Source of the DNA: Bradyrhizobium sp. CCBAU 53421
GTDB lineage: Bacteria > Pseudomonadota > Alphaproteobacteria > Rhizobiales > Xanthobacteraceae
NCBI RefSeq assembly: GCF_015291625.1
Contig: NZ_CP030047.1
Location: forward strand, 6,820,001-6,884,000
DNA: 64,000 nt
Direction: 5' to 3'
The notes under the pieces were generated by a model. It had not been told where the DNA came from, did no database searches, and saw only the letters and a program-made list of their open reading frames with translations. Below, in pieces: positions 312 to 17,729 of this stretch. The number at the start of each line of letters is the position of its first letter. Positions within the stretch are counted from its first letter, which is position 1. The translations under genes were made by a program, and so were the position numbers.

Positions 312-1085
312 TTAGCGCTCGGCGAACGCCTTCTCCACCACGAACTGCGCTGGCTCGCCGTGATTGCCCTCAGCGAAGCCGCGGCCATTCAGCAGCGTGC
401 GGGTGTCGGCGACCAGCGCCGGCGAACCGCAGATCATGACGCGGTCATGCGCGGCATCGAGCGCCGGCAGGCCGATGTCGGCGAACAGCTTCCCCGAGGT
501 GATGAGGTCGGTGATGCGGCCGCGGTTGCGGAACGGATCGCGCGTCACGGTCGGATAGTAGATCAGCTGGTCGCGCACCAGCTCGCCGATCAGTTCGTCC
601 TGCGGCAGCTTCTCGGTGATCATCTCGCCGTAGGCGAGCTCCTTGACGCGGCGGCAGCCGTGCAGCAGCACGACCTTCTCGAACCGGTCATAGGTCTCGG
701 GATCCTTGATCACGCTGAGGAACGGCGCGAGGCCCGTGCCGGTGCCGATCAGATAGAGGTTGCGGCCGTCCTCGAGATTGTCGATGACCAGCGTGCCGGT
801 GGCCTTGCGGCTGACGATGATCTCATCGCCTTCCTTGAGGTGCTGGAGGCGCGAGGTGAGCGGACCGTCCGGAACCTTGATCGAGAAGAATTCGAGCGTG
901 TCCTCGTAATTCGCGCTGGCGACGCTGTAAGCGCGCAGCAGCGGCTTCTCGCCGACCTTGAGCCCGATCATGGTGAACTCGCCGTTGCGGAAGCGGAACG
1001 ACGGATTGCGCGTGGTCTTGAAGGAAAACAGCGTGTCGGTCCAGTGATGGACGCTGAGGACGCTTTCCTGGTTGAAATTGCTCAT
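312..1085 (-). CDS. fpr: Ferredoxin--NADP(+) reductase
   Basis: A 257-residue flavoprotein that moves electrons between NADPH and ferredoxin or flavodoxin. The FAD-binding motif RAYSVAS lies near residue 52, the NADP-binding GTGTGLAPFLS near residue 115, and the C-terminus VVEKAFAER is typical of bacterial (subclass I) Fpr. Length matches the family. The start at 1085 gives MSNFNQESV with an AGGGG ribosome site about 8 bases upstream; a longer open frame to 1163 runs through the operator and is unlikely. It is divergent from the enamidase gene, and a strong inverted repeat at 1146-1177 lies between them. Its place in the nicotinate island suggests it supplies reduced ferredoxin to 6-hydroxynicotinate reductase; that link is inference. 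No ferredoxin gene was seen nearby. Confidence 0.9.
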   Translation of the reverse strand: MSNFNQESVLSVHHWTDTLFSFKTTRNPSFRFRNGEFTMIGLKVGEKPLLRAYSVASANYEDTLEFFSIKVPDGPLTSRLQHLKEGDEIIVSRKATGTLVIDNLEDGRNLYLIGTGTGLAPFLSVIKDPETYDRFEKVVLLHGCRRVKELAYGEMITEKLPQDELIGELVRDQLIYYPTVTRDPFRNRGRITDLITSGKLFADIGLPALDAAHDRVMICGSPALVADTRTLLNGRGFAEGNHGEPAQFVVEKAFAER

Positions 1086-1145
1086 CGCACCAACCCCTGA
1101 TTTGTGCTGCGGCGGGCAAGGACTTGAACCAGTTGACCGGCCGGA

Positions 1146-1177: not shown

Positions 1178-1256
1178 ATAATCCGGCTTGATCGAAAAGT
1201 CAAGCCGGGCTCAAATTCCCGGGCAATTTCGGAAAGAAAACAGAAGGAAAACACCC

Positions 1257-2453
1257 ATGGCTCACGACGCGCCCCAGGCCACCGGTCCCAGCAAGCTGGT
1301 GATCCGCAATATCGGGCTATTGCTGTCGGGAGCGCTGGAGAAGCCGATCCTGGACGCCGATACCATCGTCGCCGAGAACGGCAAGATCACTGCGATCGGC
1401 CGCCTCAAGGACGTCGACACCGACGGCGCCACCACGATCGTCGACGCCATGGGCACGACGGTCGCGCCCGGCCTGATCGACAGCCACGTGCATCCCGTCG
1501 CCGGCGACTGGACGCCGCGGCAGAACCAGATCAACTGGATCGACAGCTATCTGCATGGCGGCGTCACCACCATGATCTCCGCCGGCGAAGTGCACATGCC
1601 CGGCCGGCCGCGCGACGTGGTCGGCGTGAAGGCGATGGCGATCTTCGCGCAGCGCGCGTTCTGGACGCTGCGGCCGGGCGGCGTGAAGGTGCACGCCGGC
1701 GCGCCCGTCATCGAATGCGAGATGGTCGAGGACGATTTCAAGGAAATGGCCGCCGCCGGCGTCAAGCTGCTCGGCGAGGTCGGGCTAGGTGGCGTGAAGG
1801 ACGGACCGACGGCGCGGAAGATGGTCGGCTGGGCGCGCAAATACGGCATTCAAAGCACGATCCACACCGGCGGCCCGTCGATCCCGGGCTCCGGCCTGAT
1901 CGACAAGGACGTGGTGCTGGAGGCCGACACCGACGTGGTCGGCCACATCAACGGCGGCCACACCGCCCTGCCCGACGACCAGATCCGCTGCATCTGCGAG
2001 GGCTGCAAGCGCGGGCTCGAGCTGGTGCATAACGGCAACGAACGCTCGGCGCTGTTCACCTTGCGCACCGCGCGCGAGATGGGCGATCTGCACCGCGTCA
2101 TCCTCGGCACCGACGCACCGGCCGGCTCCGGCGTGCAGCCGCTCGGCATCTTGCGGATGGTCTCATTGCTGTCCTCGCTCGGCGAGCTGCCTGCTGAGCT
2201 CGCATTCTGCCTTGCGACCGGCAACACCGCGCGGATGCGCGAGCTCGACTGCGGCCTGATCGAGGTCGGCCGCTCCGCCGATTTCGTGCTGATGGACAAG
2301 GCGCAGCACTCGCCGGGCAAGAACATCCTGGAGAGCGTTCAGCTCGGCGACCTCCCTGGCATCGGCATGACCATCATCGACGGCATCGTCCGCACCCAGC
2401 GCAGCCGCAACACGCCGCCCGCAGGCAAGGTGCCGGAGATCGTCGCGAAGTAG
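1257..2453 (+). CDS. ena: Enamidase (6-oxotetrahydronicotinate amidohydrolase)
   Basis: A 398-residue amidohydrolase-superfamily enzyme. Metal ligands are visible in order: H77 and H79 in DSHVH, E174 as a possible bridging residue, H203 in TIHTGG, H230 in VVGHINGG, and D286 in LGTDAP. This layout and the overall sequence fit the enamidase of Eubacterium barkeri, which hydrolyses 1,4,5,6-tetrahydro-6-oxonicotinate to ammonia and 2-formylglutarate. The start at 1257 follows GAAGGA by 8 bases; an upstream in-frame ATG at 1188 lacks such a site. The gene is divergent from fpr behind a shared operator, and the island also encodes a 6-hydroxynicotinate reductase homologue, which strengthens the call. 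A different cyclic amide substrate cannot be excluded from sequence alone. Confidence 0.8.
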   Translation: MAHDAPQATGPSKLVIRNIGLLLSGALEKPILDADTIVAENGKITAIGRLKDVDTDGATTIVDAMGTTVAPGLIDSHVHPVAGDWTPRQNQINWIDSYLHGGVTTMISAGEVHMPGRPRDVVGVKAMAIFAQRAFWTLRPGGVKVHAGAPVIECEMVEDDFKEMAAAGVKLLGEVGLGGVKDGPTARKMVGWARKYGIQSTIHTGGPSIPGSGLIDKDVVLEADTDVVGHINGGHTALPDDQIRCICEGCKRGLELVHNGNERSALFTLRTAREMGDLHRVILGTDAPAGSGVQPLGILRMVSLLSSLGELPAELAFCLATGNTARMRELDCGLIEVGRSADFVLMDKAQHSPGKNILESVQLGDLPGIGMTIIDGIVRTQRSRNTPPAGKVPEIVAK

Positions 2454-2478
2454 TGGGCGAGAACAACTCTTAATCCGT

Positions 2479-2865: not shown

Positions 2866-4266
2866 ATGACGATGAGGCCAGATCCCACGTTTCATGCGTC
2901 GCCGAAGCTTGCGATGGAAGCTCCGGCGGAGAACTTCGCCTACACCGTGCTGCTCAGCCCGGATTTTTCCAAGCCCGACGCGCTTGCCGTCATCGACGTC
3001 AAGCCGGGCTCGCCGACCTACAGCAAGATCGTCCACACCGTGACGATGCCCAACAAGGGCGACGAGTTTCACCATTTCGGCTGGAACGCGTGCTCGTCGG
3101 CATTGTCCCCGCTTGCGGGCCATGCCTTCATCGAGCGCCGCTATCTCATCGTGCCCGGCATGCGGTCGTCGCGGATCTACGTCATCGACACCAAGCCGGA
3201 TCCGACGCAGGCCAAGATCCACAAGATCATCGAGCCTGAGGAGGTGTTCAGGAAGACCGGCTATTCGCGGCCGCATACCATCCACTGCGGACCGGACGGC
3301 ATTTATGTCTCCACGCTCGGCGGCGGCGGCAAGGACGGCACCGACGGGCCGCCCGGCGTCTTCATCATGGATTGCGAGACCTTCGAGGTGCTCGGACGCT
3401 GGGAGATCGATCGCGGTCCCCAGACCAAGCACTATGATTTCTGGTGGAACCTGCCGCGCGACTACATGGTGAGCAGCGAATGGGCGCTGCCGCCGCAATT
3501 CGAGAACGGCATCGCGCCGGAAGACCTGCTCTCGAACAAATACGGCCATCGCATCCACTTCTGGGATCTGCGCGCGCGTCGCAATGTGCAGACCATCGAT
3601 CTCGGCGCCAACCATCAGATGGCGCTGGAGGTGCGGCCAGCGCACGATCCGGTTCGCGAATACGGCTTCGTCGGCGTCGTGGTCGACACCACCAACCTCG
3701 AAGGTTCGATCTGGACCTGGTGGCGCGAGGGCGGCAAGTTTCACATCGAGAAGACGGCGACGATCCCGCCCGAGCCCGCGCCCAAGGAGCAGTTGCCGCC
3801 CCTGCTGCAGGGTTTCGGCGCCGTGCCGCCGCTGGTGACCGACATCGACCTGTCGATGGACGACAGGTTCCTGTACGTCTCCTGCTGGGCCACCGGCGAG
3901 ATGCGCCAATACGATGTCCGCGATCCGCGCAAGCCGAAGCTCGCCGGATCGGTGCACATCGGCGGCATCGCCCGGCGCACCCCGCATCCCAACGGCCAGA
4001 CATTTGCCGGCGGTCCGCAAATGGTCGAGATCAGCCGCGACGGCAAGCGGGTCTACTGGACCAATTCGCTGTACTCGACCTGGGACGACCAGTTCTATCC
4101 CGACGGCATTCCCGGCGCCGAGGTGATGGCGCATGCCAGCCCGGGCGGCGGGCTTGAACTCGCCAAGGACTACTGGGTCAGCCTCCCCGACGGGTACCGC
4201 GCGCACCAGATCCGGCTCGACGGCGGCGACTGCTCGACGGATTCGTTCTGCTATCCATCGGCGTGA
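2866..4266 (+). CDS. mtoX: Selenium-binding protein 56 family / methanethiol oxidase
   Basis: A 466-residue protein of the SBP56 family. Bacterial members characterised as methanethiol oxidase convert methanethiol to formaldehyde, hydrogen sulfide and peroxide and bind copper. Family hallmarks are DEFHHFGWNACSS near residue 65, HYDFWWNLPRDYM near residue 190, HQMALEVRPAHDP near residue 248 and CWATGEMRQYDVRDP near residue 345, spread over a seven-bladed propeller of the usual length. No signal peptide is evident, unlike the periplasmic Hyphomicrobium enzyme, so the location is uncertain. The start at 2866 sits 7 bases after AGGAGG. The stop overlaps the GTG start of the next gene. Neighbours concern nicotinate, so the gene pair may be an insertion into that island. 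Confidence 0.85.
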   Translation: MTMRPDPTFHASPKLAMEAPAENFAYTVLLSPDFSKPDALAVIDVKPGSPTYSKIVHTVTMPNKGDEFHHFGWNACSSALSPLAGHAFIERRYLIVPGMRSSRIYVIDTKPDPTQAKIHKIIEPEEVFRKTGYSRPHTIHCGPDGIYVSTLGGGGKDGTDGPPGVFIMDCETFEVLGRWEIDRGPQTKHYDFWWNLPRDYMVSSEWALPPQFENGIAPEDLLSNKYGHRIHFWDLRARRNVQTIDLGANHQMALEVRPAHDPVREYGFVGVVVDTTNLEGSIWTWWREGGKFHIEKTATIPPEPAPKEQLPPLLQGFGAVPPLVTDIDLSMDDRFLYVSCWATGEMRQYDVRDPRKPKLAGSVHIGGIARRTPHPNGQTFAGGPQMVEISRDGKRVYWTNSLYSTWDDQFYPDGIPGAEVMAHASPGGGLELAKDYWVSLPDGYRAHQIRLDGGDCSTDSFCYPSA

Positions 4267-4937
4267 ATGTGAGTGCAGCCGACTGGACACCGGCTTGGTT
4301 GTGGCTGGCGGTGATTGCGAGCGGCCTCTACCACGGGATCAACCCGGGCATGGGCTGGCCGCTCGCGGTTTCGGCCGGATTGATGCAGAGGAGTTCGCGC
4401 GCGCTGCTCGCCGCGCTTGGCCCGCTCGCAATCGGTCATCTGCTGGCGATGCTGCTCGTGATCCTGCCCTTCGCGCTGCTGATCACCCTCGTCGAATGGC
4501 AGCGCACGATCCGGATCGGCGCGAGCGTGCTTGTAATCGGCTTCGGCATCTATCGGCTGATCGACCGGCGCCATCCGCGGGCTCTGGCGCGGATACCGCC
4601 GACGCAGCTCGCTTTGTGGTCGTTCGCGGTGGCGATCGCCCATGGCGCGGCGCTGATGCTGGTGCCGATCTATCTCGGACTATGCCGCGCAGCCGAGCCG
4701 GACCAAGGCCATGCGGCGGCCAACAGCCTGATCGACACCAGTCTCACCATGGCCGTGCTGGTCTCCATCGTCCATGCCGGCGCAATGATCGCCGCCGGTG
4801 GATGCCTGGCGTGGCTGGTCTACCGCTATCTCGGTCTCAAATTCGTGGCCCGGAGCTGGTTCAACCTGGACACGGTGTGGGCCCTCAGCCTGGTGCTGGT
4901 CGGTGCCGTTGCGCTGGCGTTCGGCCTGAGATCGTAG
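4263..4937 (+). CDS. Integral membrane protein paired with SBP56
   Basis: A 224-residue polytopic protein with about six hydrophobic helices and no soluble domain. The motif GLYHGINPGMGWPLAVS follows the first helix. The GTG start at 4263 overlaps the stop of the methanethiol oxidase gene (GTGA), so the two are translationally coupled. The biochemical role is not known to me; assistance with export, metal supply or transport for the oxidase is possible. The family resembles small permease-like proteins, but no transporter signature is clear. Confidence 0.75.
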   Translation: MNVSAADWTPAWLWLAVIASGLYHGINPGMGWPLAVSAGLMQRSSRALLAALGPLAIGHLLAMLLVILPFALLITLVEWQRTIRIGASVLVIGFGIYRLIDRRHPRALARIPPTQLALWSFAVAIAHGAALMLVPIYLGLCRAAEPDQGHAAANSLIDTSLTMAVLVSIVHAGAMIAAGGCLAWLVYRYLGLKFVARSWFNLDTVWALSLVLVGAVALAFGLRS

Positions 4938-5016
4938 GGCGGGTAGAGCGAAGCAAAACCCACCATCTCGCCGCCGGTACCAATGATGGGTTTCGCTGCG
5001 CTCTACCCATCCTACG
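4933..5016. repeat. Palindromic repeat (family E)
   Basis: An imperfect inverted repeat whose arms include GTAGGGCGGGTAGAGCG and CGCTCTACCCATCCTACG. It begins inside the last codons of the membrane protein gene and may serve as its terminator. Only one copy was seen in the window. Confidence 0.6.
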
Positions 5017-5056
5017 GTGCGCGATCGTGGCGAAGTAGGGAGCGCGAACGATGTGT

Positions 5057-5200
5057 CCCGTCATCCCCGCGCAACGGCTTCGCCGTTGTCGCTGGAGGTG
5101 CGAGCGCAGCGAGCCTCGAAGGATGCACGGCCCACGTGGGGCCACGGCCGGGCCGTCGACCCTTCGAGACGGTCGCTTCGCGACCTCCTCAGGGTGACGG
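5057..5200. repeat. Family A palindromic repeat
   Basis: Same family as 2479-2612 and in the same orientation. The two copies share CGCGCAACGGCT and GCCGTTGTCGCTGGAGGTGC near their left ends. Together they bracket the methanethiol oxidase cassette. Arms are GCCTCGAAGGATGC and CGACCCTTCGAGACGG, ending CCTCAGGGTGACGG. Confidence 0.75.
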
Positions 5201-5212
5201 TGATAGATTGCG

Positions 5213-5668
5213 TCAGCGTAATTTCCCGAGCAGTGCCATCAGCGTCTCGCGCTCCTTGGCGTCGAGCGGCGCCAGCGTCTCGCGGGAGATCACAAGCGCA
5301 TTCGGAGCTGCCTTGTCGGCCATCTGCTGGCCGGCGCGCGTCAGGCTCACCAGCAGGCGGCGGCCGTCGTCGGGATCGGGCGAGGTCTCGGTCAGGCCGC
5401 GCGCGGTCAGGCGATCGATCACGCCCTTGATGGTCGCAACGTCCATCGAGGTGAGCCGCCCGAGCTGGTTCTGCGAGCACGCCCCGACCTCCGACAGCTT
5501 CGACAGCGCGGCCCACTGCGTCGGCGTCAAATTGATGCCGATCTCGCGGGCGAAGATCACGGCGTGGCGCTGCGACACCTGGCGCAGGATGAAGCCGATC
5601 TGCTCGTCGAGCACGTAACCGGGCTTGGCCGCCTTGACGCTTCGCTTCTGTGCAGCACTCCTCGCCAT
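5213..5668 (-). CDS. MarR-family transcriptional regulator, NicR/BpsR-like
   Basis: A 151-residue winged-helix regulator. The recognition region reads SQNQLGRLTSMDVATIKGVI (about residues 68-87), followed by the wing PDPDDGRRLLVSLT. MarR proteins of this type (NicR in Pseudomonas, BpsR in Bordetella) repress nicotinate catabolic genes and respond to 6-hydroxynicotinate. The gene is the last of a minus-strand run from the reductase through the ABC transporter, 15 bases after livF, so it would be expressed with the genes it is likely to control. The GTATAC palindromes upstream of fpr, ena, hnr and nicA are its probable targets. The family assignment is firm; effector and targets are inference. 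Confidence 0.85.
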   Translation of the reverse strand: MARSAAQKRSVKAAKPGYVLDEQIGFILRQVSQRHAVIFAREIGINLTPTQWAALSKLSEVGACSQNQLGRLTSMDVATIKGVIDRLTARGLTETSPDPDDGRRLLVSLTRAGQQMADKAAPNALVISRETLAPLDAKERETLMALLGKLR

Positions 5669-5683: not shown

Positions 5684-6388
5684 TTACAGCGACAGATGCG
5701 CGTCGCGGACATCCGGACGCGCATCGAGTTCCGCCATGGTGCCGCCGAAACAGATCCGGCCGCGCTCGATGATGTAGGCGCGATCCGAGATCAGCCGGGC
5801 GAAATGCAGATTTTGCTCTGACACGACGATGCTGACGCCCTCTTTCTTCATCGCCAGGATCGCATCGACCATCTGCTCGACGATCTTCGGCGACAGACCT
5901 TCCGACGGTTCGTCGAGCAGCACCAGCGACGGATTGCCCATCAAGGTGCGTGCGATCGTCAGCATCTGCTGCTCGCCGCCGCTCATGCGCCCGCCCGGCC
6001 GGCCGCGCATCTCGCCGAGGTTGGGGAACAACTTGAACAATTTGTCGCGATCCCATTGCGGCGCACCCGGCCGCTTCGGCTGGCGGCCGACCTCGAGATT
6101 CTCCTCGACCGTCAAATCGGTGAAGATGCGCCGCTCCTCCGGCACATAGCCGAGCCCGCCGCGCACGATCGCATGGGTCGGCAGCTCAGAGACGTCTCTG
6201 CCCTCGAACATCACGCGGCCGGAGCGGTTCTCGACCAGGCCGACGATGGAGCGGAACGTGGTCGACTTGCCGGCGCCGTTGCGGCCGAGCAACGCGACCA
6301 CTTCGCCCTCGCCGACCTCGAGCGCGATGTCGAACAGGATATGCGCCGGACCGTAGAAGCTGTTGAGGTCCTTCACCGTGAGCTTCAT
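5684..6388 (-). CDS. livF: ABC transporter ATP-binding protein, LivF type
   Basis: A 234-residue ATPase with Walker A GRNGAGKST near residue 36, signature MSGGEQQ near residue 138 and Walker B LVLLDEP near residue 158. Short length and sequence place it in the LivF subgroup of branched-chain amino acid-type (HAAT) importers. The start overlaps the livG stop by ATGA at 6385-6388. With LivG, LivHM and the binding protein it forms a complete importer at the inner membrane. The position inside the nicotinate island suggests nicotinate or a related pyridine carboxylate as cargo. Confidence 0.9.
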   Translation of the reverse strand: MKLTVKDLNSFYGPAHILFDIALEVGEGEVVALLGRNGAGKSTTFRSIVGLVENRSGRVMFEGRDVSELPTHAIVRGGLGYVPEERRIFTDLTVEENLEVGRQPKRPGAPQWDRDKLFKLFPNLGEMRGRPGGRMSGGEQQMLTIARTLMGNPSLVLLDEPSEGLSPKIVEQMVDAILAMKKEGVSIVVSEQNLHFARLISDRAYIIERGRICFGGTMAELDARPDVRDAHLSL

Positions 6389-7176
6389 GCCGATGCTCCC
6401 TCGCGGTGCCGCGCGTCGTAGACCAGGCCTTCGCCGAGATAGATCGCGCGCACCTGGGCGTTGCCGCGGACCTCTTCGGGCGAGCCCTCGGCGATCAGGC
6501 TGCCGCGGTTGAGCACCAGGATGCGGTCGGCATGCTCGAACACCACGTCCATGTCGTGCTCGGTGAAGAGAACACCGATCGACTGCTCGCGCGCGATCCG
6601 CGCCGTCAGCCGCATCAGCTCGACGCGCTCGCGCGGCGCCATGCCGGCGGTTGGTTCATCCATCAAGAGCAGCTTCGGCTGGTTGGCGAGCGCGATCGCA
6701 AGCTCGAGCCGCTTGACGTCGCCATAGGCGAGCTCGCCGCAGGGCCGCTCCGCATAGGCACCCATGCCGACCAGATCGAGCAGCCGACCGGCCTCGTCGC
6801 GGGCGTGCCGCGCGGTCGAGGCCCACAGGTTGAACAATTGCCCGCCATGCGAGACCAGTGCGACCTGCACGTTCTCGCGCACCGTCATGGTCGGGAACGT
6901 CGCCGCGATCTGGAAGGTGCGACCGACGCCCATCCGCCAGATCACGCGCGGCTTCTTGCCGGTGGTCTCCGCCCCCAGCACGCGGATGCGGCCGCTATCG
7001 GGGATGTTCTGGCCGTTGAGCATATCGAAGCAGGTGCTCTTGCCCGCCCCGTTCGGTCCGATCAGCGCCAAAATCTCGCCGGCGCGCAGTTCGAACGAGA
7101 CGCCGCGCACGGCATGCACGCCGCCATAGGATTTGGTCAGCCCCTCGACCGACAGCAATGTGGGGACCATGCTCAT
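6385..7176 (-). CDS. livG: ABC transporter ATP-binding protein, LivG type
   Basis: A 263-residue ATPase with Walker A GPNGAGKST near residue 38, a signature-like LAYGDVKRLE where LSYG is typical, and Walker B LLLMDEPTAG. The C-terminal extension after the H-loop (TEHDMDVVF) is typical of LivG. The start MSMVPT at 7176 overlaps the permease stop by four bases (7173-7176), and its own stop overlaps livF. The gene is the first of two ATPases in the island's importer. Confidence 0.9.
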   Translation of the reverse strand: MSMVPTLLSVEGLTKSYGGVHAVRGVSFELRAGEILALIGPNGAGKSTCFDMLNGQNIPDSGRIRVLGAETTGKKPRVIWRMGVGRTFQIAATFPTMTVRENVQVALVSHGGQLFNLWASTARHARDEAGRLLDLVGMGAYAERPCGELAYGDVKRLELAIALANQPKLLLMDEPTAGMAPRERVELMRLTARIAREQSIGVLFTEHDMDVVFEHADRILVLNRGSLIAEGSPEEVRGNAQVRAIYLGEGLVYDARHREGASA

Positions 7177-9062
7177 TCGGCAGTCTCGATGCGGGAGGTC
7201 AGCGCGGGCGACGCCGACGACGAAGATTTGCGCCGACGATGCAGGAAAGCTTCCAGCGTGCCGACGATGCCCTTCGGGAAGGAGACCACGATCAACACGA
7301 CGAAGGCGCCGAGCACGAGCTTCGACCAGTCGGTCTGGCTGACCAGCCAGATGTTGAGCGCCTTGTAGACGATCGCGCCGACCACCGCGCCCGACACCGT
7401 CTCGACGCCGCCGAGCAGCACCATGACCAACGCATCGACCGACAGCGAGATGCCCATGTTGTCGGGGAACACGCTGCCCTTGAGATAAGCGAACAGCGCG
7501 CCGGCAAGGCCGGCAACCGTGCCCGCGATCACGAAGGCGGTCCACTGGATCCGCTTGCCGTTGATGCCGACGGCTTCGCTGCGCAGCGGCGAATCGCGCG
7601 TGGCGCGCAGCGCAAAGCCGAACGGCGAGAACACGATGATACGCAGGATCACGACCGCGAGCGCGGCGATGCCGAGCGACAGCCAGTAGAAATGCGACGG
7701 GCTCGCCGCCCATTTTTCCGGCCAGACCCCGAGGATGCCGTTGTCGCCGCCGGTGACCGACACCCACTGGAACGCGATCGACCAGACGATCTGGGCAAAC
7801 GCCAGCGTCAGCATCGCGAAATAGACGCCCGAGAGCTGCACCGCGAAGAAGCCGAACACGGCGGCGCCCAGGAGCCCCAGCAGCGGGCCGAGCAGCAGGC
7901 AGGCGATCATCGGCAGACCCGCCATCTTGGCAAGCAGCGCCACGCCATAGGCGCCGAGGCCGAAATAGGCGGCGTGGCCGAACGAGGCGAGCCCGCCGAC
8001 CGACATCAGGAAGTGCAGGCTGACCGCGAAGATCACGAAGATCGCGATCTCCGAGCCGACGGTGAGCAGGTAATTGCCGGCGACGAACGGCAGCGCGGCG
8101 GCGACAATGAGCACCGCTATCGCGGCCATCCGTTCATTCATCGTCAGCGGCCGCCACGGATTGACGGTGAGGCCCGGCGTGCGCCGCACTGGGGCCTCCG
8201 GCTTGCCGAACAGCCCCCACGGACGGACGATCAGCACCACCGCCATCACCAGGAATACCAGGATGATGGAGATCTTCGGGAAGATCAGGATGCCGAAGGC
8301 ATTGAGCTCCGAGACCAGCACCGCCGCGACGAAGGCGCCGATGATGCTGCCGAGGCCGCCGATCACGACCACGACGAAGACCTCGACGATGACGCGCAAA
8401 TCCATCGCATGGTTGACCGCATCGCGCGGGATCTGCAGCGCGCCGCCGAGGGCGGCGAGGAAGACGCCGAGCGCGAACACGCTGGTGAACAGCCATTTCT
8501 GATTGACGCCGAGCGCCGCGACCATATCGCGGTCCTGCGTCGCCGCGCGCACCAGCACGCCCCAGCGGGTGCGCTGGAACAATAGCCAGAGCACGCCGAG
8601 CACGACCGGCCCGAGCACGATCAGGAACAGATCATAGCTTGGGATATTCTGGCCGAAGAAATCGATCGCGCCCTTGAAGCCGGGCGCGCGGCGGCCGACC
8701 AGATCGTCCGGCCCCCAGATCAGCACCACGAGGTCCTCGACCATCAGCGTGAGGCCGAAGGTTGCGAGCAATTGGAACAGCTCCGGCGAATGATAGATCC
8801 GGCGCAGCAGCACCATCTCGACCAGCACACCGATCGCAGCAACCGCCAGCGCCGCGACGATGATGCCGCCCCAAAAGCCGAACGCGCCGGCGAAGCGCTC
8901 GGTCAAGGTGAAGGCGACGTATGCGCCGAGCATGTAGAACGCGCCGTGTGCGAAATTCACGATCCGCGTCACGCCGAAGATGATCGACAGGCCCGAAGCG
9001 ACCAGGAACAGCGACGCCGCGCTGGCAAGACCGGTCAGGAACTGGACGACGTAGAAAGCCAT
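7173..9062 (-). CDS. Fused LivH-LivM ABC permease
   Basis: A 629-residue membrane protein in which the two permease subunits of a Liv-type importer are one chain. Residues 1-290 are LivH-like (MAFYVVQFLTGLASAASLFL, then GLSIIFGVTRIVNFAHGAFYM). Residues 310-629 are LivM-like (SFGHAAYFGLGAYGVALLAK, then ATRDSPLRSEAVGING). Several other Bradyrhizobiaceae Liv systems show the same fusion. The start at 9062 gives MAFYVV; an upstream frame to 9173 passes through a repeat and is rejected. A 182-base gap with a family D repeat separates it from the binding protein gene upstream. Confidence 0.9.
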   Translation of the reverse strand: MAFYVVQFLTGLASAASLFLVASGLSIIFGVTRIVNFAHGAFYMLGAYVAFTLTERFAGAFGFWGGIIVAALAVAAIGVLVEMVLLRRIYHSPELFQLLATFGLTLMVEDLVVLIWGPDDLVGRRAPGFKGAIDFFGQNIPSYDLFLIVLGPVVLGVLWLLFQRTRWGVLVRAATQDRDMVAALGVNQKWLFTSVFALGVFLAALGGALQIPRDAVNHAMDLRVIVEVFVVVVIGGLGSIIGAFVAAVLVSELNAFGILIFPKISIILVFLVMAVVLIVRPWGLFGKPEAPVRRTPGLTVNPWRPLTMNERMAAIAVLIVAAALPFVAGNYLLTVGSEIAIFVIFAVSLHFLMSVGGLASFGHAAYFGLGAYGVALLAKMAGLPMIACLLLGPLLGLLGAAVFGFFAVQLSGVYFAMLTLAFAQIVWSIAFQWVSVTGGDNGILGVWPEKWAASPSHFYWLSLGIAALAVVILRIIVFSPFGFALRATRDSPLRSEAVGINGKRIQWTAFVIAGTVAGLAGALFAYLKGSVFPDNMGISLSVDALVMVLLGGVETVSGAVVGAIVYKALNIWLVSQTDWSKLVLGAFVVLIVVSFPKGIVGTLEAFLHRRRKSSSSASPALTSRIETAE

Positions 9063-9099
9063 GGGCGGTCCGCGTTGGAGATTACAAGCGTCACTTTCC

Positions 9100-9235
9100 T
9101 TCACCTCGCCCCGCTTGCGGGGAGAGGTCGAATTCAAGCGCCAGCTTGAATTCGGGTGAGGGGGACTCTCCACGCGCTCGCTCGCGGAGATAGCCCCTCA
9201 CCCCAACCCTCTCCCCGCAAGAGCGGGGCGAGGGA
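9100..9235. repeat. Palindromic repeat (family D)
   Basis: Arms CCTCGCCCCGCTTGCGGGGAG and CTCCCCGCAAGAGCGGGGCGAG enclose a second nested palindrome, AATTCAAGCGCCAGCTTGAATT. It lies between the binding protein and permease genes and may act as a stabilising or attenuating hairpin, which would favour binding protein over permease expression. A related fragment is at 21381-21424. Confidence 0.7.
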
Positions 9236-9244
9236 GTAAAAAGC

Positions 9245-10487: not shown

Positions 10488-11072
10488 TTATCGCAATCCG
10501 TCTTCGCCCTTGATCTCGCCGACCGTCAGCCCGCCGACGCGCGGCAGCGGCCGTCCGCTGTCGGTGACCGCAACCGCGACCATGATCTCGTTGGCCCGCG
10601 GCGCGTCGTTAATCTGCACCTCCATGCCGTCGAAATGGCTGCGTACGAAGGCAGCGTCCTTGTGCCCGAGCGGAATATCCAGCGTGGTGCCGGGACCCGA
10701 GCGCTTCTTCGACGATGGGATCAGCGCGGCGCCCTTGGAGAGCACCTTGCGGACCGGCGCGCCCATCTTGGGGTGCAGGATCGCCGCCGCGTGCTCGAGC
10801 TCGCCGTTTTCGCCGACGGCGGCGGCCTTGCCGTAGCTGTGCGCCTTGGCGCCGTCGATGCCGAGCGCGGCAATTGCCCGCTTCGACAGCAATTCGCCGA
10901 GCTCCTCGCCGATCGTGATCAGCGGCGACAAATCCTCGACATAACGGCCGGCAAAGGGGTTCTCGATCACGGCGATCGCAGCGGCCCGCCTTGTCGGCGG
11001 TGCAATGGTCTTGCCCATCTCCAGATGGGTCTCCTCGACCACGGTGACGATCTTGCGAATGACGGCGCTCAT
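10488..11072 (-). CDS. AA_synth (PF06684) family protein
   Basis: A 194-residue protein recognisable as the amino acid synthesis family (PF06684, formerly DUF1185) from the N-terminal IRKIVTVVEETHLEMGK, the central NPFAGRYVEDLSPLI and the C-terminal RANEIMVAVAVTDSGRP. The family has no settled biochemical function. No signal peptide or membrane segment is seen. The start at 11072 lies 16 bases after the UPF0280 gene, and 28 bases separate it from the binding protein gene. Its repeated place among ring-amide and amidohydrolase genes suggests a cytoplasmic catabolic step or a metabolite-proofreading role in nicotinate breakdown; this is inference. Confidence 0.75.
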   Translation of the reverse strand: MSAVIRKIVTVVEETHLEMGKTIAPPTRRAAAIAVIENPFAGRYVEDLSPLITIGEELGELLSKRAIAALGIDGAKAHSYGKAAAVGENGELEHAAAILHPKMGAPVRKVLSKGAALIPSSKKRSGPGTTLDIPLGHKDAAFVRSHFDGMEVQINDAPRANEIMVAVAVTDSGRPLPRVGGLTVGEIKGEDGLR

Positions 11073-11088: not shown

Positions 11089-11997
11089 TCATGCCTGCAG
11101 CATGATTTCTGACGTTCTTCCTTGAAACGCGTGCGACGCCGGCGTCTCGTTCCCAGTTGCACCGACAAGCCGCGTTTCGCCCAGTAGACGCAATGCCGCG
11201 CCCTCGATCAATCCCGACATCAGGAGGTCGCGTGCCCGCGCCGCCCCCGCCTCGAGCGCCTGATCGATCTCGTGTTCCGCGAGCCGTCCGACGTCGCGAG
11301 TCACCAGCCGCGCGCCGAGATCGCTGTCCGGCTGCAATTCGCACGCCGGAATGCGCAGGATCGCGGGATGGCTGGGCAGATCGACCGCATTGGCGATCAC
11401 GGTTGCGGCGGCATCGGCCTGTGCTGCCGTCCGCGCCAGCACGGTGACGGCATCGGCGATGCCGAGCGAGAAGCTGCGGCCGTGGCGGCCGCTGGTCGCA
11501 ATGCCGCGGACCGGCATGTCGCTATCTACGGTCATGGTGCGCATCACGCCATGGCGGTCCGGCCGATCCATCAGGCCGACGGTGAACTGTTCGTTGGCTG
11601 CGAGATGCAAGGCAATGTCGCCGCCGTTGTTGACATAGGCGCGGTCGAGCACCGCCGCCTGCCGCATCGCGCCGAGGATTTCCTCTGCGACCGAACCCGC
11701 GACGGCCGCCATCGGCGTGATGAAACCGTCGGCGGCAAACGGCGCGACGGCCGCATGCATGCGCCGGGCGACCACGCCCTTCAACGTGCACCGCTGCGGA
11801 TCGGCCGCACTGCGTAGCCCGGCTAGTTCCGCGCAGAGTTCGTCAAGCAAACCGGTGAAGCGCGCTGCCGCGGCCCGATAGGCGGCACTGACGTCCGCAT
11901 CCCGGCCCTTGGCCTCGATGACCAGATCAATCGGACCGTCCTGCAAATGCAGCCGCTTGCCGTCAGGAAGAAGCGCGATTTGCGGGAGCCGGCTCAT
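11089..11997 (-). CDS. UPF0280 family protein, ApbE-like; possible flavin transferase
   Basis: A 302-residue protein of the UPF0280 family, which is related in fold to the ApbE FAD:protein FMN transferases. Visible family features are TPMAAVAGSVAEEIL near residue 100, AYVNNGGDIALHL near residue 122, and RGIATSGRHGRSFSLGIADAV near residue 160, equivalent to the nucleotide-contacting segments of ApbE. The start at 11997 overlaps the reductase stop (ATGA), so the two proteins are made together. The E. barkeri 6-hydroxynicotinate reductase is reported to carry covalently bound flavin, so a role in attaching flavin to the neighbour is attractive. No canonical ApbE target motif (DxxSGAT) was found in the reductase, which leaves this open. 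Confidence 0.75.
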   Translation of the reverse strand: MSRLPQIALLPDGKRLHLQDGPIDLVIEAKGRDADVSAAYRAAAARFTGLLDELCAELAGLRSAADPQRCTLKGVVARRMHAAVAPFAADGFITPMAAVAGSVAEEILGAMRQAAVLDRAYVNNGGDIALHLAANEQFTVGLMDRPDRHGVMRTMTVDSDMPVRGIATSGRHGRSFSLGIADAVTVLARTAAQADAAATVIANAVDLPSHPAILRIPACELQPDSDLGARLVTRDVGRLAEHEIDQALEAGAARARDLLMSGLIEGAALRLLGETRLVGATGNETPASHAFQGRTSEIMLQA

Positions 11998-13442
11998 GCG
12001 CGCCGTCCTGGGAGGAATGGCATCGGCCGGACTTCGGCGCTGTCCCGCAGCGACGACAGCGGCCGGACGTAGTCCATATGACCGCCGAGCGCCGCGTAAT
12101 CCGACAGCCGCATCGTGAACTCGATCGGCGCCACCAGTGCCGGGGTCGGCACGTAACCGAAGGCGCCGGCCGGCATCTGCGTGACATCGACCATGAAGGT
12201 GATGCCGCCGCCGGGCCAAACATAAACCGGCGCGCCGCCGCTAGTCACCCTTGTGAGCGCATCCTTCACCGAGCGGGTCAGCCGCACCGGATTGTCGGTG
12301 ACGCCGGCGCGCAGCGATCCGCCCGCGCCGCCCATGAACAGCACGGTGCACAGCGCCGGCTCGCAATTCTCCTGGATGCGCTCGACCGAGAATTTCAGAT
12401 CCGCCGGCATCTCGGTCTCGACCGGCCTCAAGACCTCGTCGAGCACGTAGTACGAGGCATGCTCGCCTGTCGTCGAGACCATCAGCATGGTCAGTCCCGG
12501 CCGCGCCTCCTTGGCATTGAAGGGCCCGAGGATCGACAGCGGATCTGAAATGTTGGTGCCGCCCCATCCGGTGCCGGGATCGGCGACCTGGAAATAGCGA
12601 CCGGGCGTCGAACGGCGGCCCTTCATCTTGATGCCGGTGTCGGCGATGTCGAGCAGCTTACCGGCCTGATGCTCGCTGAGCACGCCGGTGATGTGGTCGT
12701 CGACCACCACGACTTCATCGACCTTGCCGTGCCATTGCTTGGCGAACATGCCGATGGTCGCCGAGCCGCAGCCGACCCGCATGCGCTCTTCGGCCGTGCC
12801 GTTGACGATCGGCGGCTTGCCGGCTTGCACCACGACGGTGGCGCCGCCGTCGATGGTCAGCTCCACCGCCTTGCAGTTGGAGAGATCCATCAGCGTGTCG
12901 CAGGTGACGCGGCCTTCCTTCTTGGAGCCGCCGGTCAGATGATGCACGCCGCCGAGCGAGAGCATCTGCGAGCCATATTCACTGGTCGTGACATGGCCGA
13001 CCGCCTCGCCGTCCGCGCGCACGGTCGCGGTCTCCGGCCCGAGATAGCGGTCGGTGTCGATCTTCACCTTGACGCCGCAATAGGAGAAAATGCCCTCGGT
13101 CACCACCGTGACCATGTCGATGCCGTCGACCTCCGACGACACGATGAAGGGCGCCGGCTTGTAGTCAGGATAGGTGGTTCCGGCGCCGATCGCGGTGACG
13201 AACAGTTCGGGCTGACGGACGATCTTGCCGTCCCAGTCGCCGCTCACCTGGAACGGCACCAGCTTGCCGCCATGCGAGACGGTGCGCTCCAGCACGACAT
13301 GCGGATCGACGCGCACCAGCGTGCCGTCGTGATTGGCATAACGGTCGCAGGCGCCGGCCGCGCCCGGCTTGATGTAGCACATCACCGGACAGGCATCGCA
13401 GCGGATCTTGTCGCCGGCGGCGACGGTCATTGTGTCAGCCAT
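11994..13442 (-). CDS. hnr: 6-hydroxynicotinate reductase homologue
   Basis: A 482-residue iron-sulfur protein matching the reductase that turns 6-hydroxynicotinate into 1,4,5,6-tetrahydro-6-oxonicotinate. The N-terminus carries a cysteine cluster C15, C18, C22 and C32 (CDACPVMC, then GACDRYA), suited to one [4Fe-4S] centre. Further cysteines in FSYCG, VTCDTLMDLSNC, VGCGSA and ENCEPALC could hold more. The E. barkeri enzyme has one [2Fe-2S] centre, two [4Fe-4S] centres and covalent flavin and takes electrons from ferredoxin. ATG at 13442 is preferred over an upstream TTG. The gene heads the minus-strand run with UPF0280, AA_synth, the ABC transporter and marR, and is divergent from nicAB across an operator region. 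The call rests on family resemblance plus strong context. Confidence 0.78.
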   Translation of the reverse strand: MADTMTVAAGDKIRCDACPVMCYIKPGAAGACDRYANHDGTLVRVDPHVVLERTVSHGGKLVPFQVSGDWDGKIVRQPELFVTAIGAGTTYPDYKPAPFIVSSEVDGIDMVTVVTEGIFSYCGVKVKIDTDRYLGPETATVRADGEAVGHVTTSEYGSQMLSLGGVHHLTGGSKKEGRVTCDTLMDLSNCKAVELTIDGGATVVVQAGKPPIVNGTAEERMRVGCGSATIGMFAKQWHGKVDEVVVVDDHITGVLSEHQAGKLLDIADTGIKMKGRRSTPGRYFQVADPGTGWGGTNISDPLSILGPFNAKEARPGLTMLMVSTTGEHASYYVLDEVLRPVETEMPADLKFSVERIQENCEPALCTVLFMGGAGGSLRAGVTDNPVRLTRSVKDALTRVTSGGAPVYVWPGGGITFMVDVTQMPAGAFGYVPTPALVAPIEFTMRLSDYAALGGHMDYVRPLSSLRDSAEVRPMPFLPGRRA

Positions 13443-13505: not shown

Positions 13506-13523
13506 TCGTTCGTATACGAATGA
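13506..13523. promoter_or_regulatory. GTATAC operator upstream of hnr
   Basis: TCGTTCGTATACGAATGA contains the perfect 12-bp palindrome TTCGTATACGAA (13509-13520). It matches the arms at 1146-1177 with one substitution per half site. Its centre is about 70 bp upstream of the hnr start, where a repressor would cover the promoter. Confidence 0.65.
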
Positions 13524-13639
13524 TCCTGCGCGCGAGCCTCAAGCCTGTCAAGCAGCCTTTGCAATCAAACCCTGCCATTCGCTTGCGCACCCTGTTCATA
13601 AAGCGTGCACTCGCTGCAGCGCGGCATGCCGCCGCTTGC

Positions 13640-13657
13640 ACGTTTGTATACAAACGT
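13640..13657. promoter_or_regulatory. Perfect 18-bp palindromic operator upstream of nicA
   Basis: ACGTTTGTATACAAACGT is its own reverse complement over all 18 bases. It shares CGTTTGTATAC with the left arm at 1146-1159. It lies 62 bp before the nicA start. The 277-base gap between hnr and nicA thus holds one operator for each divergent gene, and nothing else recognisable. Confidence 0.75.
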
Positions 13658-13719: not shown

Positions 13720-14187
13720 ATGCGCCTGACCGTCAACGGCAGGAATCATGATGTCGACGCCGCTCCCGACACCGCATTGCTTTATGTGCTGCGCAACGAT
13801 CTCGAATTGAACGGACCGAAATATGGCTGCGGGCTCGGCGAGTGCGGCGCCTGCGCGGTGCTGATCGACGGCGTCGCGGCGCGCTCCTGCGTGATTCCGA
13901 TCGAGGGCTGTGCGGGGCACGACATCGTCACGCTCGAGGGCCTCGGCAGCCGCGAGCATCCCGATCCGGTGCAGGATGCATTCATTCGCGAACAGGCCGC
14001 GCAATGCGGCTATTGCCTCAACGGCATGATCATCACCACCAAGGCGCTGCTCACGCGCAATGCAAATCCGTCCGAACACGAGGTGCTGGAAGCGCTGCGC
14101 TACAATCTCTGCCGCTGCGGTGCCCATATCGAGATCATCCGCGCCGCGATGCGCGCCGCCGGCCACGCGCTCGAGGCGCGCGATTAA
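13720..14187 (+). CDS. nicA: Nicotinate hydroxylase small [2Fe-2S] subunit, NicA type
   Basis: A 155-residue two-cluster ferredoxin subunit of the xanthine dehydrogenase family. C37, C42, C45 and C57 (CGLGECGAC, then RSC) bind the plant-type cluster; C96, C99, C131 and C133 (CGYC and CRC) bind the second. It carries electrons from the molybdenum centre of the next gene product to its haems. The size matches Pseudomonas putida NicA (about 157 residues). The stop codon overlaps the following ATG (TAATG), so the two subunits are coupled. The substrate nicotinate is inferred from the reductase, enamidase and pncB around it; other azaheterocycle hydroxylases share this subunit. Confidence 0.85.
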   Translation: MRLTVNGRNHDVDAAPDTALLYVLRNDLELNGPKYGCGLGECGACAVLIDGVAARSCVIPIEGCAGHDIVTLEGLGSREHPDPVQDAFIREQAAQCGYCLNGMIITTKALLTRNANPSEHEVLEALRYNLCRCGAHIEIIRAAMRAAGHALEARD

Positions 14188-17100
14188 TGACGGACGCGCG
14201 GTCTCCAGAGCAACGCATGCTCGGCTCACTGTCGGTCGTCCGCCCCGCGGTGCTGGGCGCGGAAGGCGCGTTCGAGACCTTCATCACCATCACGGCCGAT
14301 GGTTCCGTCAACGCTTACAACGGCCATGTCGATCTCGGCACCGGCATCCGCACCGCGCTCGGACAGATCGTCGCCGAAGAACTCGACGTCTCCTTTGCCC
14401 GCGTGGTCGTGATCCTCGGCGATACCGCCGTGGTGCCGAACCAGGGCGCGACGATCGCAAGCGAAACCATCCAGATCACCGCTGTTCCCTTGCGCAAGGC
14501 CGCTGCGCAAGCGCGGCACTTTTTGCTCGCGCGCGCGGCCGCGCGGCTCGAATTGGCGGAGAGTGACCTCACGATCGAGGATGGGCTGGTCCGCGGCCAT
14601 GACAACCGCAGCGTCAGCTATGGCGAGTTGATCGCGGACGAGACCATCCGGCTCGAGCTCGCCGACGACGTTGCGGTCAAGGAAGTGAGTGCGTATTCCG
14701 TGGTCGGCAAATCCGTGCCGCGCGTCGACTTGGCGGCGAAGGCCACCGGAGAACTCGTTTATGTTCACGACGTGCGCGTGCCAGGCATGCTGCACGGCCG
14801 CGTCGTCCGCCCGCCCTATGCCGGCGTCGATGCCGGCCCGTTCGTCGGCACCAGCTTGATCGCAGTCGATGAAGCCTCGGTGCGCGATATCCCCGGCCTC
14901 GTCGCGGTGGTGCGGATCGGCGATTTCGTCGGCGTCGTCGCCGAGCGCGAGGAGAACGCGATCAAGGCCGCCGCGCAGCTCGAGGTGAGCTGGAAGCCGG
15001 GGCCTGTTTTGACCGATCTCTCCGACATCGAACAGGCGCTGCGCGCCAATCCCTCGACGCCGCGGCAGCTGATCGACAAGGGCGACGTCGATGGCGCGAT
15101 CAAGGCGGCGGCCAAGCCGATGCAGCGGACGTACGTCTGGCCCTACCAGATGCACGGCTCGATCGGCCCGTCCTGCGCGGTCGCCGACTGCGGCGAGGGC
15201 GCGGTCCGGGTCTGGTCCGGCACCCAGAACCCGCACATCCTGCGCGGCGATCTGGCGCTGTTGATCCAGCGGCCGGAATCCGAGATCGACGTGATCCGGA
15301 TGGAGGCCGCCGGCTGCTACGGCCGCAACTGCGCCGACGACGTCTCCGCCGATGCGCTGCTGCTGTCGCGCGCGGTCGGCCGGCCGGTGCGCGTGCAGCT
15401 TACCCGCGAGCAGGAGCACGCCTGGGAGCCGAAGGGCACCGCGCAGCTGATGGACGTCAATGGCGGGCTCAATGCCGACGGCAGCGTCGCCGGCTACGAT
15501 TTTGCCACGCGCTATCCCTCAAACGGCGCGCCGACCCTGGCGCTGCTGCTCACCGGGCGGATCGCGCCTGAAGCGGCCGTGTTCGAGATGGGCGACCGCA
15601 CCGCGATCCCGCCCTACGACTACGAGAACATGCGCGTGGTCGCCAACGACATGCCGCCGATCGTGCGCGCCTCCTGGCTTCGCGGCGTCTCGGCACTGCC
15701 GAACACCTTCGCGCATGAATCCTATATCGACGAGCTTGCCGCCGAGGCCGAGGTCGATCCGATCGAATACCGGCTGCGGTATCTAAAGGACAAGCGTGCG
15801 ATCGATCTCGTCAACGCGGTTGCCGAGCGCGCCGGCTGGACGCCGCGCCCGGTGTGGAAGGAGCCTGAGGCGAACGGCGATATCGTCCGCGGCCGCGGCT
15901 TTGCCTATGCGCTCTACATGCACAGCAAGTTTCCCGGCTACGGCGCGGCATGGTCGGCGTGGATCGCCGACGTCGCCGTCAACAAGACGACCGGCGACGT
16001 CAGCGTGACGCGCGTGGTCGCCGGCCAGGATTCCGGGTTGATGATCAACCCGGAAGGCGTGCGGCACCAGATCGAAGGCAACGTGATCCAGTCGACCAGC
16101 CGCGCGCTGATGGAGGAGGTCTCATTCGAACGCGGCGCGGTGACGGCACGTGAATGGGGCGCCTACCCCATCATCAAGTTTCCTGAGCTGCCGAAGATCG
16201 ACGTGCTGATGCTGCCGCGGCAGGACCAGCCGCCGCTCGGCGTCGGCGAATCCGCCTCGGTGCCGAGCGCGGCTGCGATCGCCAATGCGATCTATGACGC
16301 GACCGGCGTGCGTTTTCGCGAATTGCCGTTCACGCCGGAACGCATCCTGAAGGGCTTGCACGGCGAGCAGCCCGCAGCGCCCGCCCCTCTTCCGCCGCCT
16401 GCGCGGACGGCTGATCTCAACAGGTGGCAGAATCCTTTTGCGAAGCGCAGCGGCCTGCTCGCCGGCATTGCCGCGCTCTGCGCCGCCGCTATTGGTGTCG
16501 GCGCGGCGGTGCTGCCCTGGCGCGCGATCGCGCCGATCGCCCGGCCCGACGCCTCGGTCTATTCCGCCGCGACGATCGCGCGCGGCAAGGAGCTTGCGTC
16601 ACTCGGCGCCTGCGCCGTCTGCCACACCTCGGAGCATGGAATCGCGAACGCCGGCGGCCGGCCGCTCGAGACGCCGTTCGGCACCATCTACACCACCAAC
16701 ATCACACCCGACGTCGCAACCGGGATCGGCGCCTGGTCCTATCCCGCCTTCGAGCGCGCGATGCGCGAGGGCATTCATCGCGACGGGCGCCATCTCTATC
16801 CGGCGCTTCCGTACACGCATTTCGCCAGGACCAGCGATGCCGACCTGCAGGCGCTCTATGCCTATCTGATGGCGCAGGCGCCGGTGAGCGCCGAGGCGAA
16901 GGCGAACGCGCTGGCCTTTCCGTTCAACCTGCGGCCGCTGCTCGCCGGATGGAATGCGCTGTTCCACCAGCCCAGCACGTTCCAGCCCGGTCCATCGAAG
17001 TCGGCGATATGGAATCGCGGTGCCTATCTGATCGAGGGCCTCGGCCATTGCAGCGCCTGCCACTCGCCGCGCAACGCGCTCGGCGCCGAGCGGCAAGCGG

Positions 17101-17729
17101 CCTATCTCGCCGGCGGTTTCGCCGAAGGCTGGGAGGCGCCGGCGCTGACGTCGCTGTCGAAGGCGCCGATCCCCTGGAGCGAGGACGAACTCTACGCCTA
17201 CTTGCGCACCGGCGAGTCGCGCCTGCACGGCGTCGCCGCCGGCCCGATGGCGCCCGTCGTGCAGGAACTCGCCGCGCTGCCCGATCAGGACATCCGCGCG
17301 ATGGCGGTCTACCTCGCCTCGTTCAACGAGGCCGCCGATCGGCCGGCCCACGATGCGCTTGCCGCGAAGCTCGAGACCAGTACCGCCGTCACCACCGCCG
17401 CCTCGACCGGCGCGCGGATCTATCAGGGCGCCTGCGCGGTCTGCCACGAGGTCGGCGGCCCGCCGCTGTTCGGCAGCCGGCCGTCGCTGGCGCTGAACAG
17501 CAATCTGCACAGCGATGCGCCCGACAATCTGATCCAGGTGATCCTGCACGGCATCACGAAGCCGGCCGTGACCGATCTCGGCTACATGCCGGCCTTCAAG
17601 GACAGCATGAGCGACGGCCAGGTCGCCGAGCTCGCCACCTTCCTCCGGCGGCAATTTGCCCCGGACAAGCCGGCCTGGACCGATGTCGCCGCCAAGGTCG
17701 GCCGTATACGGCAGACCATAGCGCGCTGA
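14187..17729 (+). CDS. nicB: Nicotinate hydroxylase large subunit, NicB type: Mo domain fused to triheme cytochrome c
   Basis: A 1180-residue fusion. Residues 1 to about 735 form a molybdopterin-binding hydroxylase domain of the xanthine dehydrogenase/IorB type (VDLGTGIRTALGQIVAEEL near residue 48, GVGESASVPSAAAIANAIYD near residue 690). A single hydrophobic helix follows at about 753-775, then a cytochrome c region with three CXXCH haem sites at residues 809-813, 955-959 and 1083-1087. P. putida NicB (about 1187 residues) has the same architecture and hydroxylates nicotinate at C6 with electrons passing to the respiratory chain. The helix would anchor the haems to the membrane. Start at 14187 overlaps the nicA stop. 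Function is well supported by architecture and context; the exact substrate is inferred. Confidence 0.85.
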   Translation: MTDARSPEQRMLGSLSVVRPAVLGAEGAFETFITITADGSVNAYNGHVDLGTGIRTALGQIVAEELDVSFARVVVILGDTAVVPNQGATIASETIQITAVPLRKAAAQARHFLLARAAARLELAESDLTIEDGLVRGHDNRSVSYGELIADETIRLELADDVAVKEVSAYSVVGKSVPRVDLAAKATGELVYVHDVRVPGMLHGRVVRPPYAGVDAGPFVGTSLIAVDEASVRDIPGLVAVVRIGDFVGVVAEREENAIKAAAQLEVSWKPGPVLTDLSDIEQALRANPSTPRQLIDKGDVDGAIKAAAKPMQRTYVWPYQMHGSIGPSCAVADCGEGAVRVWSGTQNPHILRGDLALLIQRPESEIDVIRMEAAGCYGRNCADDVSADALLLSRAVGRPVRVQLTREQEHAWEPKGTAQLMDVNGGLNADGSVAGYDFATRYPSNGAPTLALLLTGRIAPEAAVFEMGDRTAIPPYDYENMRVVANDMPPIVRASWLRGVSALPNTFAHESYIDELAAEAEVDPIEYRLRYLKDKRAIDLVNAVAERAGWTPRPVWKEPEANGDIVRGRGFAYALYMHSKFPGYGAAWSAWIADVAVNKTTGDVSVTRVVAGQDSGLMINPEGVRHQIEGNVIQSTSRALMEEVSFERGAVTAREWGAYPIIKFPELPKIDVLMLPRQDQPPLGVGESASVPSAAAIANAIYDATGVRFRELPFTPERILKGLHGEQPAAPAPLPPPARTADLNRWQNPFAKRSGLLAGIAALCAAAIGVGAAVLPWRAIAPIARPDASVYSAATIARGKELASLGACAVCHTSEHGIANAGGRPLETPFGTIYTTNITPDVATGIGAWSYPAFERAMREGIHRDGRHLYPALPYTHFARTSDADLQALYAYLMAQAPVSAEAKANALAFPFNLRPLLAGWNALFHQPSTFQPGPSKSAIWNRGAYLIEGLGHCSACHSPRNALGAERQAAYLAGGFAEGWEAPALTSLSKAPIPWSEDELYAYLRTGESRLHGVAAGPMAPVVQELAALPDQDIRAMAVYLASFNEAADRPAHDALAAKLETSTAVTTAASTGARIYQGACAVCHEVGGPPLFGSRPSLALNSNLHSDAPDNLIQVILHGITKPAVTDLGYMPAFKDSMSDGQVAELATFLRRQFAPDKPAWTDVAAKVGRIRQTIAR

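Follow-up and report, generated by a model that had tools for sequence, protein, structure and literature searches.

Gene content of the nicotinate island

We examined a 64-kb stretch of the Bradyrhizobium sp. CCBAU 53421 genome (positions 6820001-6884000 of a single contig of 9.26 Mb; hereafter the window), which carries an island of genes for a predicted reductive breakdown of nicotinate and, within it, the pairing of a homologue of 6-hydroxynicotinate reductase (Hnr) with a protein of the UPF0280/COG2122 family. All genes named in an initial annotation of the island were found where it had placed them, as open reading frames (ORFs) of the expected families. On the minus strand, hnr (11994-13442, identified by the names of its relatives) is followed by the gene for UPF0280 (11089-11997; NF003322, 421.1 bits against a cut-off of 290), paralogue 1 of AA_synth (10488-11072; PF06684, 249.5 bits; PDB 2qtp, 294 bits), a Liv-type ABC transporter (5684-10459, with ORFs for LivF, LivG, a permease at 7173-9062 and a substrate-binding protein at 9245-10459) and a MarR-type regulator (5213-5668; PF01047). 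The hnr stop codon and the UPF0280 start overlap in an ATGA. Divergent from hnr on the plus strand lie nicA, for the NicA-like [2Fe-2S] subunit of nicotinate dehydrogenase (13720-14187; PF01799, PF00111), and nicB, for a NicB-like molybdopterin subunit fused to a C-terminal triheme cytochrome c (14187-17729; PF20256, PF02738 and three stretches of PF13442), the cytochrome part showing three CXXCH haem motifs by motif count. Further left, the genes for a ferredoxin--NADP+ reductase-like protein (FNR; 312-1085, minus strand; NF008178, 162 bits, under the cut-off of 390) and an enamidase (Ena; 1257-2453, plus strand) diverge from each other.

The best solved homologue of Ena is, as the initial annotation had implied and by a wide margin, the enamidase of Eubacterium barkeri (PDB 2vun; residues 12-395 aligned on 2-385, E 1.5e-108), the next-best PDB match reaching only 6.9e-06. 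The alignment keeps the HVH, EVGLG, HTGG, HINGG and DAP segments, which we take to be the metal-binding His, Glu and Asp sites. Homologues of the Liv transporter adjoin Hnr in other loci, and the accessible text of an earlier study (PMC3511419) names a putative ABC transporter for nicotinate; the transporter is thus probably the nicotinate uptake system.

These genes predict a reductive route that is well supported by homology. Nicotinate, taken up by the Liv-type transporter, would be hydroxylated to 6-hydroxynicotinate by NicAB, whose triheme cytochrome would carry the electrons away; low-potential electrons, probably drawn from NADPH via the island FNR, would then allow Hnr to reduce the ring, giving 1,4,5,6-tetrahydro-6-oxonicotinate; and Ena would open the ring to give 2-formylglutarate and ammonia, with AA_synth-1 probably acting on this product or just after it. 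UPF0280 is probably no pathway enzyme but a dedicated maturation factor of ApbE fold, which most likely attaches or loads the flavin of Hnr. In this scheme the gene identities are computed, and we infer the substrates in this organism, the electron path and the role of AA_synth.

The route that the initial annotation proposed therefore stands on homology, but it is already published rather than new. As far as their accessible text goes, Shettigar et al. 2012 (PMC3511419) describe the same conserved cluster in A. caulinodans, B. japonicum USDA110, R. palustris HaA2 and SG-6C (Fig. 4 legend); SG-6C, a member of the Bradyrhizobiaceae, uses nicotinate or 6-hydroxynicotinate as sole carbon source. 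There the tetrahydro-6-oxonicotinate route was deduced by homology, the SG-6C experiments revealed no metabolite of 6-hydroxynicotinate, and chemical evidence was cited from Azorhizobium work (Kitts 1989, 1992). The description of the gene set as little studied accordingly fails for the cluster type, and holds for two proteins without a proposed role in that text. The island is itself a further member of a published cluster type, and what is new is confined to the Hnr-UPF0280 pair, a lactamase variant and the regulon.

A shared operator defines a regulon

An operator palindrome, TTYGTATACRAA, occurs at four sites in the window when up to one mismatch is allowed, against 0.05 expected, and all four fall in the intergenic regions between FNR and ena or between hnr and nicA. 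The first region holds two palindromes within 1149-1174 (1149-1160 with one mismatch, 1163-1174 exact), and the second holds two exact ones within 13509-13654 (13509-13520 and 13643-13654). Across the 9.26-Mb genome the strict operator was found at four places, three of them within the island; the fourth, which falls inside an ORF at a distance of 3 Mb, was set aside. The presence of one operator at both promoter regions therefore indicates one regulon, of which the island MarR is most likely the regulator, controlling FNR, Ena, Hnr and NicAB. Because the operator links FNR to these enzymes, FNR is a probable electron source for Hnr; an FNR homologue lies inside the fetched stretch at 8 of 23 other Hnr loci. 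In one relative (G328) the palindrome precedes marR (L114:5030), nicA and ena alike, and in another (G279) it lies between marR and the hydroxylase. The strict operator is not widespread, being present in 3 of the 23 relative loci scanned (L113-L135); it was found in all four scanned loci drawn from 80 close Bradyrhizobium-type loci.

UPF0280 is inherited together with Hnr

We computed the co-inheritance of UPF0280 and Hnr in two genome samples. In a first draw of 348 Pseudomonadota genomes, Hnr was present in 32, and UPF0280 scored above its cut-off in exactly the same 32. Contig and strand are shared in each case, and no more than 542 bases separate the ends of the two matches (with an intervening MarR gene in G155); two further genomes had UPF0280 matches of just 20-22 bits. 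A further draw, of 274 genomes from the class, gave Hnr in 48; these same 48 had strong UPF0280 matches, of which 47 exceeded the cut-off; here UPF0280 is cut by a contig end in G408, Hnr and UPF0280 lie on separate contigs in G516, and four extra UPF0280 matches were all below 30 bits. As four positives are common to both draws, the total is 76 distinct Hnr genomes, with UPF0280 in 76 of 76. Within families Hnr has a patchy distribution, and changes among the neighbours leave the pair intact: all 24 compared loci (the window, 20 fetched genomes and 3 plasmids) have UPF0280, whichever hydroxylase or ring-opening enzyme is present. Overlapping reading frames would make joint transfer easy, so that UPF0280 might stay near Hnr through operon hitchhiking alone, with no functional tie; retention in every Hnr genome while AA_synth and the neighbouring modules vary makes this highly improbable.

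One listed protein of 764 residues (P0059) appears to fuse Hnr with UPF0280; because the end of its Hnr part is unlike its relatives and looks like a frameshift, we did not count it as a fusion. At another locus (L128, genome G016) Hnr is split across two frames and the adjoining UPF0280 is open; in the Hnr tree this genome is represented by one of the two pieces and has a long branch.

Hnr as a client and UPF0280 as its candidate maturase

The window Hnr is 98-99% identical to that of several Bradyrhizobium species. Of 353 loci in the genome-contig scan, the best 80 are covered here, and almost all of these come from Bradyrhizobium or close kin; the two Hnr protein searches, each limited to 8000 scored candidates and 120 rows, likewise list close kin. 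The relatives bear the name 6-hydroxynicotinate reductase in several sources, and the link to E. barkeri runs only via the SG-6C Hnr, which the accessible text gives as 42% identical to the E. barkeri enzyme (PMC3511419). No PDB relative was found (search up to E 1, profile search up to E 10), and the Pfam comparison of Hnr yielded nothing beyond two weak matches, one of them to GCV_T_C (seen with 14 of 15 members, at best 0.0047). Seven Cys (15, 18, 22, 32, 122, 225 and 360) are invariant across 15 aligned copies, an arrangement compatible with Fe-S clusters. We take 6-hydroxynicotinate reductase to carry Fe-S clusters and a covalent flavin.

Alignments were built from 13 of 21 UPF0280 copies (A1) and 15 of 21 Hnr copies (A2), both chosen for diversity, and from 79 of 120 listed UPF0280 proteins (A3) and 91 of 192 listed Hnr proteins (A4), each with the window; P0001, P0010, P0017, P0028 and P0059 were excluded from A3 and A4 for odd length, and others as near copies. 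For hhalign, 20 of 21 UPF0280 copies remained after its own filter, and the ApbE set omitted L156 (itself UPF0280) and ORFs with fewer than six links. UPF0280 has, by computation, an ApbE fold: apart from 2o34 its fold neighbours are flavin transferases, at 12-20% identity (VIA-align). D195 and T199 of an ADxxAT motif and S169 of a TSG motif are invariant in the 13 diverse members and align with the ApbE core. Together with the operator and the co-inheritance, these results point to an aerobe's self-regulated nicotinate catabolic regulon in which UPF0280 is a flavin-type maturation factor of Hnr, a reading to which we give a probability of about 55%; flavin transfer is here the inferred chemistry.

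Several observations weigh against this reading. The ApbE segment that contains the catalytic His, His257 in Vc_ApbE according to the accessible part of PMC12052999, is gapped in UPF0280, whose 13 diverse members have no invariant His; H17, present in about nine in ten, lies outside the core. The strict ApbE target motif D-x-x-[S/T]-G-A-[S/T] is absent from all 192 listed Hnr proteins and all 22 locus entries, and in the closest conserved stretch, MRVGCGSAT, the Thr is replaced by Ala in 2 of 21 locus copies and 2 of 192 listed proteins, for which reason Thr229 was rejected as a proven flavin site. UPF0280 thus differs from ApbE, Ftp and FmnB in its missing catalytic segment, its low identity and its client. 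The predicted Hnr structure is unusable (pLDDT 49.2), and the UPF0280 matches of G332 and G392 each contain one in-frame TGA. Finally, the sampled genomes are related, so that the co-occurrence counts are not independent events, and the Hnr loci compared are all from Pseudomonadota, with none from E. barkeri, Firmicutes or archaea.

UPF0280 could instead deliver sulfide or Fe-S clusters to Hnr, a role already proposed for COG2122, acting with DUF39, in Desulfovibrio and methanogens. Homocysteine synthesis in Desulfovibrio needs COG2122 together with DUF39 and NIL/ferredoxin proteins (PMC5764234), COG2122 is termed a sulfur trafficking protein in M. acetivorans (PMC12068725), and the seven invariant Cys of Hnr would suit such a client. 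Yet the 13 diverse UPF0280 members share no conserved Cys column, the fullest being occupied in 5 of 13, although some Cys is present in 19 of 21 copies and two Cys columns are kept among the close relatives of A3. DUF39 (PF01837), with which the Desulfovibrio and methanogen proteins (DVU1097, structure 2o34; MA1715) work, was found in 0 of 348 genomes, that of the window included, while 3 of 14 control genomes were positive. With flavin transferases as its other fold neighbours, we regard a sulfur-delivery role as unlikely. Somewhat less likely still is a catabolic role for UPF0280, as a pathway enzyme or as a subunit of Hnr, on an intermediate that all variants share; its presence with any hydroxylase or ring-opening enzyme in the 24 loci is what such a protein would show, but the step common to all clusters is the Hnr reaction itself, and the fold belongs to a protein-modifying family. 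The subunit role keeps some probability.

Should UPF0280 indeed flavinylate Hnr, there would be a testable answer to why anaerobic sulfur assimilation requires COG2122. The island points to a function for a family hitherto known mainly from homocysteine synthesis.

Variant clusters with other hydroxylases and ring-opening enzymes

Similar gene sets were found in other genera. Among the 24 Hnr loci, the hydroxylase is NicAB with a cytochrome at eight and a FAD/Mo enzyme of the xanthine dehydrogenase type at 14; none was seen at the remaining two (L126, L133). The ring-opening enzyme was tallied at 23 loci, L113 (G174) standing outside the tally since the stretch fetched for it stops short of where Ena would be expected. 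Nine have Ena only, 13 have only a two-subunit ATP-dependent hydrolase, and one (G170) has both. At nine of the 13 hydrolase-only loci the CapA/CapB-like hydrolase lies in the Hnr cluster within the fetched stretch (L116, L118, L122, L124, L126, L128, L129, L131 and L133; three with subunit A alone there), and at the other four (G071, G223, G313, G279) subunit B is elsewhere in the genome, as in G170. Ena was absent genome-wide in the six of the 13 hydrolase-only cases checked, and a close subunit B was absent in the three of the nine Ena-only cases checked, among them G285, which has a 43% paralogue and whose Ena match contains an in-frame TGA. On the Hnr tree the switch between Ena and hydrolase took at least three changes. 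The best NCBIfam matches of the hydrolase are caprolactamase CapA and CapB (480 and 320 bits, under the cut-off of 1000), and an enzyme of this kind would suit a six-membered lactam. A limited literature search found no paper joining 6-hydroxynicotinate with hydantoinase.

These clusters also bear on the possibility that the island breaks down another N-heterocycle and that its nicotinate label is an inherited annotation. Hnr has no solved or Pfam-named relative, and enzyme identities in this organism are predicted from sequence; against this, Ena is close to the characterised E. barkeri enzyme, SG-6C, which carries the same cluster, can use both nicotinate and 6-hydroxynicotinate, according to the accessible text of PMC3511419, and an isochorismatase of a variant cluster (L117:15450-16064) scores over its NCBIfam cut-off as a nicotinamidase, the sole homologue scored. 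We therefore consider a different substrate highly improbable. Homologues of this nicotinamidase occur at 69-100% in six loci of family f3 (L117, L118, L119, L129, L131, L132), and weaker ones at 53-54% in two f43 loci (L123, L125), which suggests nicotinamide as a possible entry point.

Joining the variants to the proposed maturation of Hnr gives a broader claim: that UPF0280/COG2122 proteins are cytosolic ApbE-fold maturases without the ApbE catalytic His, flavinylating one low-potential Fe-S client per branch (Hnr in nicotinate-degrading proteobacteria, DUF39 in anaerobes), and that reductive nicotinate breakdown also exists in another form, with an ATP-dependent CapAB-like enzyme of the caprolactamase type in place of enamidase. 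We put this combination forward tentatively, as a possibility with rather more against it than for it; the island, for its part, predicts an ATP-dependent second form of the breakdown route of vitamin B3.

The AA_synth family

The tie of AA_synth to Hnr is looser than that of UPF0280, with AA_synth in 59 of 348 genomes, including 31 of the 32 Hnr genomes. In a quick tree of 47 rows, the window protein falls in a group of 12 rows (SH-aLRT 83), a second island paralogue forms a group of 22 with one Hnr-free row within, and 11 of the 13 rows from Hnr-free loci are set apart. All 10 Ena-bearing loci or genomes have AA_synth-1, as does the fetched locus in one of the 13 lactamase-only cases; this tie comprises 2-3 independent tree pairs (sign test p 0.5), too few for significance. 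Glu, His and Arg residues are conserved in at least 95% of tree rows, which together with the published chorismate-mutase-like fold suggests that AA_synth is an enzyme. Our guess is that paralogue 1 acts at the enamine or formylglutarate stage.

According to the accessible text of PMC2954203, two PF06684 crystal structures were tied to amino-acid metabolism partly because of adjoining branched-chain transporter genes. In the window island such a transporter beside AA_synth would serve nicotinate, which suggests why the name "amino acid synthesis" may mislead. Of the 13 Hnr-free loci, five (L162, L163, L164, L168, L170) have an alpha/beta hydrolase next to AA_synth, the hydrolases being 27-42% identical to that of L133; these neighbours hint that the family may have a wider role.

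Relation to known systems

Nicotinate fermentation by E. barkeri, reportedly described by Alhapel in 2006, is said to use a selenium hydroxylase, NdhFSLM, and to end in propionate. The island resembles it in its Hnr and Ena homologues and in the same predicted intermediates, and differs in its hydroxylase, NicAB with a cytochrome. The NicA/NicB architecture is instead like that of the Nic pathway of P. putida, which, unlike the route predicted here, is not known to include a ring reduction. The initial annotation's picture of a mixed aerobic and anaerobic pathway is thus apt for the provenance of the enzymes, but is no peculiarity, since the mixture is usual for this cluster type. In the accessible text of PMC3511419, the Pseudomonas route is named as leading from 6-hydroxynicotinate to 2,5-dihydroxypyridine, and the Azorhizobium route, which the island would follow downstream, leads to glutarate, again unlike the fermentation. 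That text proposes no role for the two unknown proteins of the published clusters, whereas here UPF0280 is tied to Hnr and AA_synth-1 to the Ena branch.

Neighbouring genes

Between Ena and marR lies a gene for an SBP56-family protein (2866-4266, plus strand), a relative of methanethiol oxidases scoring under that family's cut-off, directly followed by one for a small protein matching no Pfam family (4263-4937, plus strand). Of the other Hnr loci, one from another Bradyrhizobium (L113) keeps this pair, which was not observed at the remaining 22; L165, an Hnr-free locus, has an SBP56 homologue (78%) close to AA_synth. The gaps at 2454-2865 and 4938-5212 are similar intergenic stretches, each ending in CTCAGGGTGACGGTGA. 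A second pair of NicA/NicB-like hydroxylase genes (L161:8165-10817; 44% and 27% identity) lies about 3.5 kb left of FNR, outside the window. Immediately after nicB is a gene for nicotinate phosphoribosyltransferase (17791-19095, plus strand), so that salvage and catabolism of one vitamin adjoin at this point.
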